This document shows positions 6,758 through 11,082 of a stretch of DNA of 12,794 bases, in pieces. The first letter of the stretch is position 1. Every line of letters starts with the position of its first letter. Source of the stretch: Flavisolibacter sp. (GTDB taxonomy: Bacteria > Bacteroidota > Bacteroidia > Chitinophagales > Chitinophagaceae); the NCBI GenBank assembly GCA_013695175.1, contig JACDAZ010000334.1, positions 1 through 12,794 on the forward strand, written 5' to 3'. Under the pieces are notes generated by a model. The model ran no database searches and was not told the DNA's origin. It saw only the letters and a list, made by a program, of their open reading frames with translations. The translations under genes and the position numbers were made by a program.

Positions 6758-8047
6758 TTAAAGAATTTCAGCAAGTGATTCTTTAGCTGCCTCTATAGTA
6801 ATATCCAGGTCTTTTTGTGTTAGAGCATTACTTAAAAACCAGGTTTCAAAAGCGGAAGGCGGTAAATAAATTCCTCTCTTCAACATTGCGTGAAAAAACT
6901 TATTAAACAATGCATTATTGGCTGATGATGCCGATGCAAAATCAATAACGGGTTGCTGACTGAAATGAACTGATATCATACTTCCCATACTATTGATAAC
7001 AAAGGGAACACCAGATTCTTCAAAAACTTTTTCTAATCCATTTTTCAAATAGTTACTTTTTTCTTCCAAATCAGAATATACAACAGGATTTGATTTTAAA
7101 TACGACAGTAATGTATATCCGGCTATCATGGCTATAGGGTTGCCACTTAATGTCCCAGCCTGGTATACATTTCCCAGCGGTGCAATCTGTTTCATGATTT
7201 CCATTTTGCCACCAAAAGCACCAACAGGCATTCCTGCACCAATCACTTTTCCGTAAGTAACCAAATCGGCATCAATGTTTAATCTTTCTTGTGCACCGCC
7301 CTGGGCTAATCTGAAACCCGTCATCACTTCATCAAATATTAATACAATGCCTTCTTCTGTACATATATTTCTTAACCCTTCAAGAAAGCCGGGTTCAGGA
7401 ATAATACATCCCATATTACCCGGAACAGGTTCTATAATAACAGCTGCAATTTCATTTTTATGTTCTTCTATAAGTTTTTTTACTGCATCCAGGTCATTAA
7501 AAGGTGCGGTAAGCGTATCAGCAGATACTCCGGCTGTAACACCCGGCACTGTTTGAATATTAAATGTTGCTACTCCACTTCCGGCTTTCACTAAAAATGA
7601 ATCAGCATGGCCGTGATAACATCCTTCAAATTTTATGATCTTGTTCCATCCCGTATAACCTCTTGCCAGTCTGATAGCACTCATACATGCTTCCGTACCA
7701 CTACTTACCATTCTGATCAGATCAACATTGGGTACCATACTCTTCACCAATTCAGCCATGTCCACTTCCAGTTCTGTGGGTGCACCAAAAGAAGTAGAAT
7801 CCAGTGCTTTTTCCTGAATAGCTTTTACTACAGGGTCAAAAGCATGGCCTAAAATCATGGGTCCCCATGAATTTATATAATCTAAATATCTGTTACCATC
7901 AACATCATATAAATAAGCGCCTTTTGCACTTTGAAAAAAAATGGGAGTTCCACCAACACTTTTAAATGCCCTTACCGGTGAGTTTACACCACCTGGTATA
8001 CTTTCCTGTGCCCGGTTAAATAATTCTATACTTTTCGAAATATTCAT
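6758..8047 (-). CDS. hemL: Glutamate-1-semialdehyde 2,1-aminomutase
   Basis: HemL converts glutamate-1-semialdehyde to 5-aminolevulinate, the C5-route precursor of heme, using PLP/PMP in the cytoplasm. The 429-residue product is full length: [12 protein letters not shown] (17-28), [16 protein letters not shown] (115-130), [17 protein letters not shown] (142-158), [11 protein letters not shown] (236-246) with D239 for the PLP ring nitrogen, and [17 protein letters not shown] (264-280) with the Schiff-base lysine K267. The start at 8047 gives the usual N-terminus [14 protein letters not shown]. It is the last gene of the heme cluster seen here. Its upstream region has been replaced by heptamer repeats of a four-helix-bundle cassette that end 3 bp before the ATG, so how it is expressed is uncertain. 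Its stop abuts that of the convergent DUF3817 gene. Confidence 0.97.
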
Positions 8048-8050
8048 AAT

Positions 8051-8076
8051 GTGAATGGTGAATGGTGAATTGTCAA
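8051..8076. repeat. Left heptamer repeat of the cassette
   Basis: Reads GTGAATG, GTGAATG, then GTGAATTGTCAA. Bases 8054-8072 pair perfectly with 8520-8538, and the 12-mer GTGAATTGTCAA (8065-8076) also occurs inverted at 8537-8548. So the two ends share the same units in permuted order. It forms nearly all of the sequence just upstream of the hemL start. Confidence 0.85.
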
Positions 8077-8106
8077 AAGTGCTATGATTGGCAAGGTGTC
8101 CATTAT

Positions 8107-8120
8107 GTAAATGGTAAATG
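8107..8120. repeat. Degenerate heptamer pair inside the cassette
   Basis: GTAAATG occurs twice in tandem and differs from the left-end unit GTGAATG by one base. It lies between the left repeat and the end of the four-helix-bundle gene. It looks like an older decayed copy of the same repeat, in the same orientation as the left end. Confidence 0.45.
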
Positions 8121-8140
8121 ATTATCAGTGAATAAAAGCA

Positions 8141-8494
8141 TTAAGATTGTATTAATCCTGTTAATATTTTAAAACATTTTACAATTGTAGCTCCTAACCT
8201 TTCTGTATTGATATTTGATAAATAACCAATTTCTTTTGCAATGTCTAATGCAGCGTCAACTTCAATTAAAGATCCTCTTGCAATCTCGTAATATCTTTTT
8301 CTTTCTGCTACAGACTTGCTTGAAGAACCTTCTGCAATATTTAAATGTACTGAAAGTGCTGCACGCCTTATTTGTGAGACCATTCCAAACTTTTCATCAT
8401 AAGGAAGTTGGTTCGTTAATTTATAACATTCAACTACAACCTCTTTTGAAGCTGAATATACATCAAGCTTTTGATGATTTAAAGTGAGAAACAT
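8141..8494 (-). CDS. Four-helix-bundle protein (S23/Avd-like family)
   Basis: A 117-residue, all-helical protein of the family found in 23S rRNA intervening sequences (the so-called S23 protein) and related to the Avd accessory protein of diversity-generating retroelements. Recognisable positions are HQKLDVYSASKEVVVECYKLT near the N-terminus, the family hallmark QIRRAALSVHLNIAEGSSSKS in the middle, and YYEIARGSLIEVDAALDIA after it. The frame extends upstream to an ATG at 8530, but that ATG is part of the terminal repeat; MFLTLNHQKLDVY at 8494 is the usual family beginning, so I start there. The molecular role of free-standing members is not established. No reverse transcriptase or template repeat is near. 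It sits between hemB and hemL with inverted repeats on both sides, and is unlikely to have a heme function. Confidence 0.88.
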   Translation of the reverse strand: MFLTLNHQKLDVYSASKEVVVECYKLTNQLPYDEKFGMVSQIRRAALSVHLNIAEGSSSKSVAERKRYYEIARGSLIEVDAALDIAKEIGYLSNINTERLGATIVKCFKILTGLIQS

Positions 8495-8519
8495 GCGAGA
8501 AGTTTTTTCAAACTTACAG

Positions 8520-8548
8520 CAATTCACCATTCACCATTGACAATTCAC
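8520..8548. repeat. Right heptamer repeat of the cassette
   Basis: On the minus strand it reads GTGAATTGTCAATG, GTGAATG, GTGAATTG. Bases 8520-8538 are the perfect inverse of 8054-8072. The hemB stop codon TGA (8545-8547) lies within the first unit, so the repeat ends the hemB reading frame. It also provides the upstream ATG (8530) of the longer but unlikely form of the four-helix-bundle gene. Confidence 0.85.
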
Positions 8549-9519
8549 GAAATCAATCTAACTGCGTCTTTTGCAAAATAGGTGGCAATCAAATCTGCAC
8601 CGGCACGTTTCATTGATGTAAGGGTTTCTAAAATAGCTTTGTCTTCATCTATCCATCCCATTTTAGCAGCAGCTTTTATCATGGCATATTCACCACTGAT
8701 GTTGTAGCAACTAACGGGTACGTTCACACTGGTTTTTACTTCCCTAATGATGTCTAAATATGAAAGCGCAGGCTTCACCATCACTATATCTGCTCCTTCT
8801 TCCACATCCATTTGCGCTTCTTTTACAGCTTCAATGCGATTGGCATAATCCATCTGATATGTTTTCTTATCACCAAAACCTGGTGCACTATCCAGGGCAT
8901 CCCTGAATGGACCGTAAAAACAGGATGCATATTTGGCACTGTATGCCATGATACCTGTTTTTGTATAATTTGATTCTTCTAAAGCTTTTCTTATAGCACC
9001 TATTCTTCCATCCATCATATCGCTGGGAGCAACAAAATCAGCACCGGCTTCTGCATGGCTCACACTCATTTTTGCCAAAACTTCCACTGTTGCATCATTA
9101 ACTATTTCACCATTTTCAACAATACCATCATGCCCAAAAGAAGAAAAAGGATCCAATGCCACATCAGTCATCACCAGCATTTCCGGAACAGCATCTTTGA
9201 TAGCTTTTATACTGCGTTGCATTAGTCCGTTTGGATTTAAAGCCTCGGTGCCTTTATTATCTTTTAATTCATCTCTTGATTTTACAAATAAAAGCACACT
9301 CTTTAATCCCATCTGCCAAAGTTCTTTTACTTCCTTAACTGTCAGGTCAACTGATCGACGATAATAATTTGGCATGGAAGCAATTTCAGACGAGTCATCT
9401 TCACCTTCTATAATAAATAGTGGAACTATAAAATCATTAGGAGTTAATTGCGTTTCAGCAACCAAACTTCTTATTGCTGATGATTGACGAAGTATTCTGT
9501 TGCGGCGTTGTAAGTACAT
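8545..9519 (-). CDS. hemB: Delta-aminolevulinic acid dehydratase (porphobilinogen synthase)
   Basis: HemB condenses two 5-aminolevulinate molecules to porphobilinogen. The 324-residue product has the two Schiff-base lysines, K196 in MAYSAKYASCFYGPFRDA (191-208) and K249 in IVMVKPALSYLD (245-256). In the metal-site block, DVALDPFSSFGHDG (119-132), aspartates replace the three cysteines of zinc-type enzymes, so this is the magnesium/non-cysteine type. The start codon overlaps the toxin stop by one base (TAATG), indicating translational coupling with the toxin-antitoxin genes. The C-terminus, YFAKDAVRLIS, ends at a TGA supplied by the right repeat of the neighbouring cassette, so one or two original terminal residues may have been lost or changed. 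The catalytic core is intact. Confidence 0.97.
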   Translation of the reverse strand: MYLQRRNRILRQSSAIRSLVAETQLTPNDFIVPLFIIEGEDDSSEIASMPNYYRRSVDLTVKEVKELWQMGLKSVLLFVKSRDELKDNKGTEALNPNGLMQRSIKAIKDAVPEMLVMTDVALDPFSSFGHDGIVENGEIVNDATVEVLAKMSVSHAEAGADFVAPSDMMDGRIGAIRKALEESNYTKTGIMAYSAKYASCFYGPFRDALDSAPGFGDKKTYQMDYANRIEAVKEAQMDVEEGADIVMVKPALSYLDIIREVKTSVNVPVSCYNISGEYAMIKAAAKMGWIDEDKAILETLTSMKRAGADLIATYFAKDAVRLIS

Positions 9520-9818
9520 TATATTCTCTTTGAAATTATGTCCGGATTCTGGTGTGTATTATGTATGGCAAAGATGAATACTAATGAATCTTGTATTTCA
9601 AAAATTATATTATAAAGAAAATCGGTTAAGGAAGCCTTACGTAAGTTCTTATTAATGTCTAAATAAGAAAAATACTGGGGAGTCTGCATTAATTTGGTGT
9701 AAAGGATTTGAAGCGTATCTATAAATTTTTCCGCTGCTGATTCACTATTTATTTTATAATAAATTAATGCTTTCTCTAAATCTTCCTGTGCCTCCGTTGA
9801 TATTACAAGTGAGTACAT
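9519..9818 (-). CDS. RelE/ParE-family toxin
   Basis: A 99-residue protein with the RelE/ParE-fold pattern: VISTEAQEDLEKALIYYKINS at the N-terminus, AAEKFIDTLQILYTKLMQTPQYF in the middle, LRKASLTDFLYNIIFEI, and the C-terminal strand VFIFAIHNTHQNPD. Helix-helix-sheet order and length fit ParE-like gyrase inhibitors or RelE-like mRNA endonucleases; I cannot choose between these. Its ATG overlaps the stop of the small upstream gene by one base (TAATG), the usual antitoxin-first arrangement, and its own stop overlaps the hemB ATG in the same way. Expression would thus be coupled on both sides. Its activity is not evident from sequence. Confidence 0.82.
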   Translation of the reverse strand: MYSLVISTEAQEDLEKALIYYKINSESAAEKFIDTLQILYTKLMQTPQYFSYLDINKNLRKASLTDFLYNIIFEIQDSLVFIFAIHNTHQNPDIISKRI

Positions 9819-10018
9819 TATTTAAGCTTTTCTTTTAAGCTTTTTAATGACTCTTCTACAGTAAATCCTTTTTTGCCTGACGCATAAAATTCATCCCTGC
9901 TTTCTTCAAATTTCTTTATCTCCTCCTCAGAAAATTGATATTCCTGATGGTTGTATTCATTAGCTAAAGCAATGATTAATCCAAGAAGCTTATCATCAGC
10001 ATTTCTTACGATCTCCAT
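9818..10018 (-). CDS. Putative antitoxin of the RelE/ParE pair
   Basis: A 66-residue, charged, helical protein (MEIVRNADDKLLGLIIALANEYN...) with a C-terminal half rich in Glu and Lys (FSEEEIKKFEESRDEFYASGKKGFTVEESLKSLKEKLK). It resembles small Bacteroidota antitoxins whose C-terminus wraps a ParE/RelE toxin. No clear ribbon-helix-helix or Phd motif is recognised, so the call rests mainly on size, charge and its position directly before the toxin with a TAATG overlap. The frame is open back to an ATG at 10111, inside hemF, but the likely promoter at 10063-10093 lies downstream of that ATG. Starts at 10018 (chosen) or 10048 are compatible. Confidence 0.7.
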   Translation of the reverse strand: MEIVRNADDKLLGLIIALANEYNHQEYQFSEEEIKKFEESRDEFYASGKKGFTVEESLKSLKEKLK

Positions 10019-10062
10019 AATAATTTCTTTTTTTTCTGCGAAGCCCATAAAAAAGGTTTTAT

Positions 10063-10093
10063 CAAAGTTACAAAACATACCTGCTAAACCCAA
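10063..10093 (-). promoter_or_regulatory. Putative toxin-antitoxin promoter inside the hemF 3' end
   Basis: On the minus strand TTG (10093-10091) is followed after exactly 20 bases by TAACTTTG (10070-10063), an exact match to TAnnTTTG. Element sequence and spacing agree with the Bacteroidota primary sigma consensus. It straddles the hemF stop codon (10084-10086), lies 44 bases before the antitoxin ATG at 10018, and would give a leader of about 40 bases. It should also drive hemB through the coupled genes. Confidence 0.6.
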
Positions 10094-11082
10094 TCTCTTG
10101 GCTGTAAACAAACCTGCACTAATTTATCTTCTTCACTACCGGGTTTAGGTTGATAATTATATTCAAATCTGACTGTGGGTGGAAGGCTCATTAAAATGCT
10201 TTCTGTTCTTCCATTGGTTTTTAACCCAAAAATGGTTCCCCTGTCGTGAATTAAATTAAATTCCACGTACCTGCCACGCCGGATTTCCTGCCAATTCTTA
10301 TGTTCCTTATTATAAGCAGCATTTTTTCTTTTTTCAACAATAAGTATATAAGAATCAATAAAAGCTTCACCACAGGCTTTTCCAAAATTCATCCAAAATG
10401 CTGCATCAGTTTCACCTTGTTGCGGAGAAAAAATAGCATCTTCCGGTAGTTCTCTTTGGTGATCATAAAAAATTCCACCAATACCTCGTCTTTCATTGTT
10501 ACGATGGGTATTTACAAAATAGTTATCGCAGGTTTTTTTAAAATCAGCATAAAAATTTTTGTGAAACCTGTTGCATACGTTTTTATAGGTTTGATGAAAA
10601 TGAACGGCATCTTCTTCAATTAAATAATATGGAGTTAAGTCAGTGCCGCCTCCAAACCAACGGTCAATTACTTCTTCATGTTCATTGTATAATTCGAACA
10701 TCCGATAGTTGCAATGAACAGTAGGTACAAATGGATTTATAGGATGAATGACCAAAGAAAGACCGCAAGCCCACCAGGAGCCACCATTACCGGAAGGTGG
10801 AATTTTTAATGCAGCCAACATAGCATCTGTAATTTTTCCAAAAACAACAGAACTGTTTACACCACCTTTTTCAAAAACATTTCCACCGGTAATCACTCTT
10901 GTTTTACCACCACCACCTTCTTCTCTTTCCCAGTTGTCTTCAATAAACTTTGCCTTACCATCACAAGATTCCAGGGCAGAACAAATTTTATCCTGCAGAT
11001 CGTGAATAATCTCTATCCATTCAGCCCCCTGTCCCCCGAAGGGGGAACCTAGATTTAAAAATTCTTTTTTTTTATCAGTCAT
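10084..11082 (-). CDS. hemF: Oxygen-dependent coproporphyrinogen III oxidase
   Basis: HemF oxidatively decarboxylates two propionates of coproporphyrinogen III to give protoporphyrinogen IX, using O2. The 332-residue product has the family blocks KAKFIEDNWEREEGGGGKTRVI (43-64), GGVNSSVVFG (73-82), HPINPFVPTVHCNYRMFE (113-130), WFGGGTDLTPYYL (142-154), RRGIGGIFYDH (198-208) and FNLIHDRGTIFGLKTNGRTESILMSLPP (275-302). Residues 11-20 ([10 protein letters not shown]) are encoded exactly by a 30-bp palindromic repeat and interrupt the normal N-terminal helix between MTDKKKEFLN and EWIEIIHDLQDKI. The insert lies before the conserved core, so activity is probably kept. The enzyme implies an aerobic or facultative host. 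The hemE-hemF gap is 69 bp. Confidence 0.96.
   Translation of the reverse strand: MTDKKKEFLNLGSPFGGQGAEWIEIIHDLQDKICSALESCDGKAKFIEDNWEREEGGGGKTRVITGGNVFEKGGVNSSVVFGKITDAMLAALKIPPSGNGGSWWACGLSLVIHPINPFVPTVHCNYRMFELYNEHEEVIDRWFGGGTDLTPYYLIEEDAVHFHQTYKNVCNRFHKNFYADFKKTCDNYFVNTHRNNERRGIGGIFYDHQRELPEDAIFSPQQGETDAAFWMNFGKACGEAFIDSYILIVEKRKNAAYNKEHKNWQEIRRGRYVEFNLIHDRGTIFGLKTNGRTESILMSLPPTVRFEYNYQPKPGSEEDKLVQVCLQPRDWV
11023..11052. repeat. 30-bp palindromic repeat, copy inside the hemF reading frame
   Basis: This copy matches the reverse complement of 11152-11181 at 29 of 30 bases (11052-11023 against 11152-11181); flanks do not match, so 30 bp is the full shared unit. It contains the hairpin core GTCCCCCGAAGGGGGAAC: a six-base-pair stem with a three-base loop, or on the other strand a C(UUCG)G tetraloop on four G-C pairs. 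In hemF it is exactly ten codons, L11 to A20. The unit is far richer in G and C than its surroundings. Confidence 0.85.

Follow-up and report, generated by a model that had tools for sequence, protein, structure and literature searches.

Here we report that genes of the PF05635 (23S_rRNA_IVP) family, below called IVP genes, and the inverted arrays of short tandem repeats at their two sides form one unit, which lies at unrelated loci, has a characteristic strand polarity and, in one pair of copies, has boundaries that coincide with the outer edges of the repeats. We propose that this arm-IVP-arm unit of ~450-500 bp is probably a small mobile element, with arms that are recognised by the protein encoded between them. 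The unit was found in a window of 12,794 nucleotides from Flavisolibacter sp. (assembly GCA_013695175.1, contig JACDAZ010000334.1), by which we mean the whole stretch of DNA analysed, and further units of this make, found between unrelated genes of several phyla, point to a widespread, largely unrecognised type of mobile DNA.

Inverted ends and tandem heptamers have each been described before. The 23S rRNA IVS of Coxiella, as given in the accessible part of the source (PMC4990558), has a length of 428 nt (originally stated as 444) and a terminal stem of 28 bp, and carries tandem GACAGAT heptamers upstream of its ORF; such 23S IVS are called selfish there, and their mobility is given as a hypothesis. 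Tandem heptamers that are mostly intergenic were described as STRR in cyanobacteria (PMC2670836) and as TAACTGA arrays, nearly all of them direct, in Beggiatoaceae (PMC4679880), in each case as far as the available text of the source goes. Xanthomonas GGGAATC arrays, according to the part of their description at hand (PMC4692102), form 70 inverted pairs in Xcc, lie generally apart from mobile elements and occupy, for 90% of sites, the place between the same genes in two species. The available parts of these publications present the heptamer arrays (STRR, GGGAATC, TAACTGA) without a link to IVP genes, whereas here such arrays end IVP elements. In the open-licence literature, we found no text beyond the work on the Coxiella IVS that brings IVP genes, heptamer arms and mobility together.

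The IVP element at the hemB-hemL junction

The element and its neighbours in the window are as follows, the neighbours being named by reading and after the initial annotation.

6758..8047, minus strand: hemL, downstream neighbour
8051..8076, plus strand: 3' arm, GTGAATG-GTGAATG-GTGAATT-GTCAA, complementary to the 5' arm
8107..8134, plus strand: degenerate extra units GTAAATG, GTAAATG, GTGAATA between gene and 3' arm
8141..8530, minus strand: IVP / four-helix-bundle gene (PF05635, TIGR02436), likely start 8494
8520..8548, minus strand: 5' arm (relative to the gene), four heptamer-type units GTGAATT-GTCAATG-GTGAATG-GTGAATT, which gives hemB its stop codon
8545..9519, minus strand: hemB, upstream neighbour

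The initial annotation had described a perfect 19-bp inverted repeat around one S23/Avd-like gene, and both its coordinates (8054-8072, AATGGTGAATGGTGAATTG, and 8520-8538, CAATTCACCATTCACCATT) and the protein family were confirmed. The repeat lengthens to 23 nt at 96% (8050-8072 and 8520-8542), and beyond this core extra heptamer units reach 8548 and 8076, so that the element consists at its ends of tandem 7-bp units in an intergenic position, as in STRR-type heptamer repeats. The arms enclose a single gene-like ORF (8141-8530, minus strand), which matches PF05635 in a Pfam search (E 3.1e-30) and TIGR02436 in an NCBIfam search (E 1.4e-27). Besides TIGR02436, NCBIfam returned two uncharacterised models, both below cut-off; Pfam returned PF05635 only, with no known transposase domain and no Y1 (PF01797) in the window protein; neither search pointed to a nuclease or recombinase family. 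The first ATG of the ORF, at 8530, lies inside the arm, and because close relatives start at MFL.., the true start is probably 8494, which would give a protein of 117 aa.

The cassette was also said to fill the junction completely, and this holds: the hemL ATG lies 3 bp from the 3' arm, and the hemB stop codon TGA (8545-8547) lies within the 5' arm. With the arm score defined as the best ungapped inverted match between the upstream and the downstream flank of a gene, the element scores 20.5, and a score of 20 was reached by 2 of 451 control genes. The predicted fold of its transcript is a closed hairpin (-113.1 kcal/mol, z -2.70, 2/100 shuffles as low), and the complementary ends can make a terminal stem, as judged from the sequence and the predicted fold. 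Further upstream, between hemB and the next heme gene (9519-10111), lie two small ORFs, which by resemblance we take to be a RelE/ParE-type toxin and its partner.

Inverted arms as a rule of IVP genes

The first set comprised 60 regions of 10 kb around IVP matches (eight same-genus relatives; part of the matches listed), with genes called here and in all other regions as mechanical ORFs. Of these regions, 57 IVP frames were counted; L108, L130 and L154 gave none, and intact IVPs are present in L130 and L154 outside the counted frames. A score of at least 12 was found for 52/57 IVP frames, against 27/451 for the other genes in these regions and 7% for 449 mispairings of flanks, and a score of 16 for 39/57, against 4/451 and 1.6%; some control genes are themselves neighbours of IVP elements and have one arm in common with them. 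Common intergenic repeats with no tie to this gene family, named beforehand as an observation that would overturn the initial annotation, are not what these counts describe. Seen from the repeats, the same 60 regions hold 73 inverted pairs of period 7 or 8, which enclose an IVP in 44 cases, no gene in 27 and another ORF in 2.

The association extends to other samples. A larger set, which includes the first, held 117 IVPs, reduced to 112 when five were dropped for short flanks; 94 of them score at least 12 (76/86 same-genus, 18/26 other-genus), compared with 6.4% of 1500 random mispairs. From 22 matching plasmid records, 14 loci were fetched (13 cyanobacterial, one Gemmatimonadota), all of which score at least 14.5, while mispaired flanks reach 14 in 7%. 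Among contigs of named genomes, represented by the best 80 of at least 560 matches, 78 had full flanks (three of them also in the first set), and 63 of these 78 score at least 12, against 16% of mispaired flanks; by record title, these best 80 cover Bacteroidota, Planctomycetes, Patescibacteria groups, Acidobacteria, Actinomycetes and Proteobacteria. In a gammaproteobacterial family, 26/30 IVP loci score at least 12, against 28% of mispaired flanks. The mispaired rates are higher in the latter two sets, as a single repeat family is common to many of their loci. The chief exception to the rule is a group of nine Chryseobacterium IVPs (L278-L281, L283, L285-L288), which lack heptamer arms and occupy one syntenic locus; these are possibly fixed or domesticated copies. 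A search of the window protein against 50,697 phage records gave no match at E 1e-5.

Arm structure and co-diversification with the protein

Arms were compared in 197 pooled rows (94 + 63 + 14 + 26), from which scores below 12 were dropped except at the plasmid loci, all of which were kept; the rows represent 194 distinct elements, as L157/L274, L190/L246 and L131/L272 are counted twice. The best period is 7 in 158 rows and 8 in 25. In 52 arms, positions agree with those 7 and 14 nucleotides away in 61% and 59% of cases, compared with 31% and 29% after shuffling. An arm has a median of 4.6 units, most commonly 5 or 4 (89 clear-period elements; at most 2 mismatches per unit), and in 185/197 rows G exceeds C in the 5' arm on the gene's strand. 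Mismatches between arms are of the G.U type in 154 cases and of the A.C type in 169 (p 0.44). The lack of a G.U-type excess means that RNA pairing of the arms is not visibly under selection, and arms acting as DNA sites are the simpler view. A slight excess seen in the 52 arms (58 vs 42), which had made selection for RNA pairing a candidate, vanished at 197 rows.

The repeat is specific to the element, with a unit of 7, sometimes 8 bp, and each lineage has its own, so that GTGAATG cannot be upheld as a terminal repeat common to the whole family. Arms and protein have diversified together. Across a tree of the IVPs from 98 elements, the more distant two proteins are, the less alike are their arms: the mean arm score is 11.45 for the 133 pairs at a distance below 1.2, compared with 5.27 for permuted pairs and a maximum of 5.92 in 1000 permutations. 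The 28 pairs above 60% identity that lack homologous flanks have a mean arm score of 13.0, compared with ~5 for pairs below 40%. Unit length, 7 or 8, changes 7 times on the tree, against a shuffled mean of 19.1 (0/500 as low), a comparison in which shuffling ignores the relatedness of near copies. For the ten elements known at hemB or hemL, own arm pairs score above shuffled ones (p 0.001), and the own 3' arm is the best partner in only 2 rows. In the proteins (185 IVPs), five residues are near-invariant, namely Q53 (183/184), S60 (178/185), N64 (179/185), E67 (184/185) and E90 (184/184).

The hemB-hemL junction in related genomes

In 21 of the 23 genomes of the family, hemB and hemL lie side by side; one exception has no hemB match and the other no hemL in the locus. 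As the initial annotation had proposed, empty junctions were looked for among relatives, and they are common, the IVP being absent from 17 of 21: including the own genome, an IVP lies in 4 junctions and a different small ORF in 3, and the remaining 14 span 31-145 bp (by reading). The different ORFs, in L034 (G007), L023 (G016) and L038 (G018), we take by resemblance to be Uma2-like and YciI-like. Named relatives provided six more IVPs adjoining hemB and/or hemL, which brings the known number to ten. They do not form one clade (AU p 0.0064, on a tree with 8/10 of them, L245 and L250 being left out as their translations ran into a stop ahead of the true start): L254 and the G020 copy stand apart from the window's group, and L024 is a long branch with a broken row. 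A single origin had not been rejected with 4 rows (p 0.158) and was rejected with 8/10.

The repeat type at the junction varies by species, or no repeat is present; the alternative outcome of all relatives carrying the gene at this locus without repeats did not occur. The hemB frame of G002 and that of G020 run on into the arm and stop there. At the G002 junction (L024), the IVP has a broken frame, and the 3' arm next to it has grown to ~20 CCATTGA units. Junctions without an IVP (L022, L027, L029, L033, L036, L037) often contain short inverted repeats, AAGGCGCAAAG-like or GTCTGCTG-like, and some repeats of these types supply the hemB stop codon (by reading).

IVP genes and arrays in the genome of the window

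The genome that contains the window has six IVP genes, and the suggestion that its other IVPs be checked for the window's terminal repeats gave a divided answer: one of them, on contig C155, has GTGAATG-type arms, and the other four do not, which leaves the window element and C155 as the only two of the six (by reading). The C155 IVP (G000:C155:14804-15163, L002) encodes a protein 69% identical to that of the window, with one in-frame stop, and its flanks differ from the window's, the element lying between ferrochelatase-like (hemH) and HemJ-like genes (by reading). An IVP of the window clade in G016 (L122) lies at a hemH-like/HemJ-like junction as well, so that heme genes host this clade twice.

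Repeats of the window type also occur alone. GTGAATGGTGAAT has 14 exact matches on nine contigs of the genome, most of them away from IVP genes, and the genome G005 has 27 matches and no IVP. Seven more sites with arrays were inspected in the own genome: six have no partner arm and one forms a weak hairpin; three of the seven are near contig ends.

GGGAATC arms in Gammaproteobacteria

XCC0516 of X. campestris is an IVP with a solved structure (2gsc). From this protein and the Xanthomonas GGGAATC arrays, we expected array-bearing genomes to hold an IVP with GGGAATC arms. Three exact GGGAATC units in a row were found in a single genome, G407, among 369 gammaproteobacterial genomes (8 overlapping matches, 4 contigs). 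This genome has one IVP, apparently with a shifted frame, between accB and accC (by reading), and its arms, CGGGAATCGGCAATGGGGAATCGGGAATCGT and ACGATTCCCTACTCCCCATTCCCGATTCCCG (score 23.5), are of the GGGAATC type, as predicted. In the family of G407, IVPs are present in 29/78 genomes. Of its 30 IVP loci, 12 match both accB and accC, and all of these have arms of GGGAATC or GGGATTC type (by reading); exact GGGAATC is present in the matched arms of 8 of these 12 loci and of none of the other 18, which have other units or no arms. Gene-less GGGAATC hairpins are also present in G407; in one of them, GTTCAAGC stands next to the 5' arm, as it does in the IVP element.

Copies at unrelated loci and sites of insertion

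In the complete genome G003, two elements ~1.34 Mb apart (L114 and L116) are identical at 364/455 positions and have unrelated flanks, and their alignment starts and ends at the outer arm edges, the sole pair for which such boundaries are shown. These edge-to-edge copies, with the C155 relative that combines window-type arms and other flanks, bear out the claim that gene and repeats are one unit. The initial annotation had also called this unit non-autonomous, a label that the present results do not support. Inspection by eye revealed no target duplication at either L114 or L116. The two genes have a dN of 0.092 and a dS of 1.64, dS being saturated in 7 of the 10 pairs tried; since dN is far below dS, the protein is kept by purifying selection, even between copies at different loci.

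The position of the elements relative to their neighbours is not random in direction. Of 53 armed elements (score at least 11), 41 have an upstream gene that points towards them, and for 36 of those 41 no more than 13 nt separate the stop codon of that gene from the start of the arm core, a closeness that is in part built in, as the arms contain stop codons. Between co-directional genes, 30 elements lie with and 4 against transcription (two-sided binomial ~6e-6). Other sites of the unit are cmr2/cmr3, cas6/cas4 (in two species) and nrdB/nrdA, where it lies against the gene direction. In many species, the elements at hemB-hemL and at accB-accC may be old residents, which suggests that many copies are stable.

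Solo hairpins of the Bacteroidota set have no detectable interior in common with IVP elements. They were considered as simple MITEs, a view that was rejected because their interiors match IVP elements no better than noise; the 24/28 solo hairpins with arms like some IVP arm are about what chance gives over 98 elements and two orientations (chance estimated).

Twenty Y1 genes (L208-L227) were also inspected, and nine have strong GC-rich inverted flanks of their own, a repeat system separate from the heptamers.

Discussion

The arms of the proposed element would act as its terminal inverted repeats, each of ~4-5 tandem heptamers (octamers in some lineages), with the G-rich strand nearly always at the 5' side of the gene. 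The IVP would bind these arms directly and have a role in movement, and cutting and joining would fall to host functions or to an unrecognised active site of the element. Entry would take place at or just behind the stop codon of a neighbour, mostly along transcription, and would be tolerated inside operons. Two solved relatives of the IVP, 2gsc and 2rld, have five chains deposited each, and the title of a 2006 report by Lin is said to speak of five four-helix bundles; with 4-5 units per arm, five chains may mean one unit per protomer. Operons may tolerate the element through cleavage of the transcribed hairpin, by analogy with the 23S IVS, for which such cleavage is described in the accessible part of the source (PMC4990558); for the window element, the support for this is the predicted fold.

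Several other readings of the same data have to be weighed. That the arms are ordinary dispersed heptamer repeats, arisen by STRR-like slippage and placed beside an IVP by chance, with no mobile unit involved, would agree with the array pairs that enclose no gene (27 of 73) or another ORF (2), with the one-armed arrays of the own genome and with the arrays published, as far as those sources were available, for Xanthomonas, Nostoc and Beggiatoaceae; the strong association with IVP genes relative to control genes and mispaired flanks, the match of arms to IVP lineage and the confinement of homology between copies to the element make it very unlikely. We regard as unlikely, too, that the IVP is a regulator or RNA-binding protein whose targets are lineage-matched hairpins in mRNAs, both in the IVP transcript and in those of a regulon, with movement incidental. 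The cognate relation of protein and repeat, the position in operons, the predicted closed hairpin of the window transcript and the kinship with Avd (PMC10053308, in its available part) would suit such a role, but arm mismatches have no G.U-type excess, and the repeats at hemB-hemL differ or are absent by species, unlike a conserved regulon.

Movement could also run through an RNA copy, with the IVP in the part that Avd plays in diversity-generating retroelements, that of helper to a reverse transcriptase. Avd is a four-helix-bundle protein related to PF05635, according to the part of its description available (PMC10053308), and the strand polarity and the preference for the transcribed direction would fit. 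RVT_1, however, is absent in 23/33 IVP-bearing genomes, the own included, some of these genomes being incomplete, so that reverse transcription does not seem to be needed; three of these 23 genomes have 17-18 IVPs, 4/5 IVP-less genomes have RVT_1, and the arms have no wobble excess. We consider this route highly improbable. The same low standing is given to mobilisation of the arms by REP-type Y1 (RAYT) transposases with the IVP as a passenger. Y1 genes are indeed frequent (29/38 genomes, 6 in the own genome), but 6/33 IVP-bearing genomes have no Y1 match (G004, G008, G011, G025, G029 and G035, the first three less than 90% complete), and the inverted flanks with a score of at least 20 found at 9/20 Y1 genes are all GC-rich, with none of period 7 or 8.

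The relation of the unit to known systems can be drawn as follows. In REP/RAYT systems, a protein gene lies between lineage-specific inverted repeats, of which gene-less copies are dispersed. IVP elements resemble them (REPIN) in having lineage-specific repeats and gene-less copies, such as the GGGAATC hairpins of G407, and differ in having a four-helix bundle in place of Y1 and tandem 7- or 8-mer arms in place of GC-rich palindromes. With the 23S IVS, as far as the available text on it goes, the window element shares a homologous ORF, complementary ends, the location of the ORF in the loop and a similar size; unlike the 23S IVS, it lies between hemB and hemL and not in a 23S rRNA helix, and heptamer arrays in both arms, co-diversifying with the protein, are the rule here. 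Excision from the transcript by RNase III is a further trait of the 23S IVS. It differs from Avd retroelements in its inverted arrays and in that its own genome (92% complete) has no RVT_1 match. Homologous copies from edge to edge at unrelated loci, a trait of TIR transposons and MITEs, were found in one pair (L114/L116), and the known transposase catalytic domain of a TIR transposon is absent, which a MITE would not need. The element is thus kin to the 23S IVS by its ORF and complementary ends, and works like REP/RAYT systems without being a member of them.

A wider reading, which we put forward tentatively and hold to be possible rather than probable, is that IVP elements constitute a mobile-DNA class of their own across phyla, in which a pentameric IVP would be a mobility protein that reads 4-5 heptamers per arm, and Q53, S60, N64, E67 and E90 might form a new active site. 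The class could then include, as special cases or as derivatives lacking the gene, the 23S IVS together with the heptamer repeats found in Xanthomonas, cyanobacteria and Bacteroidota.

The function of the widespread PF05635 proteins is a puzzle, as are the origin of the 23S IVS and the presence of heptamer arrays in several phyla. Should the arms serve IVP proteins as recognition sites, these three puzzles would become one. Every genome would then offer natural pairs of protein and repeat for tests of recognition, and a type of mobile element would be added whose protein matches no known transposase family.
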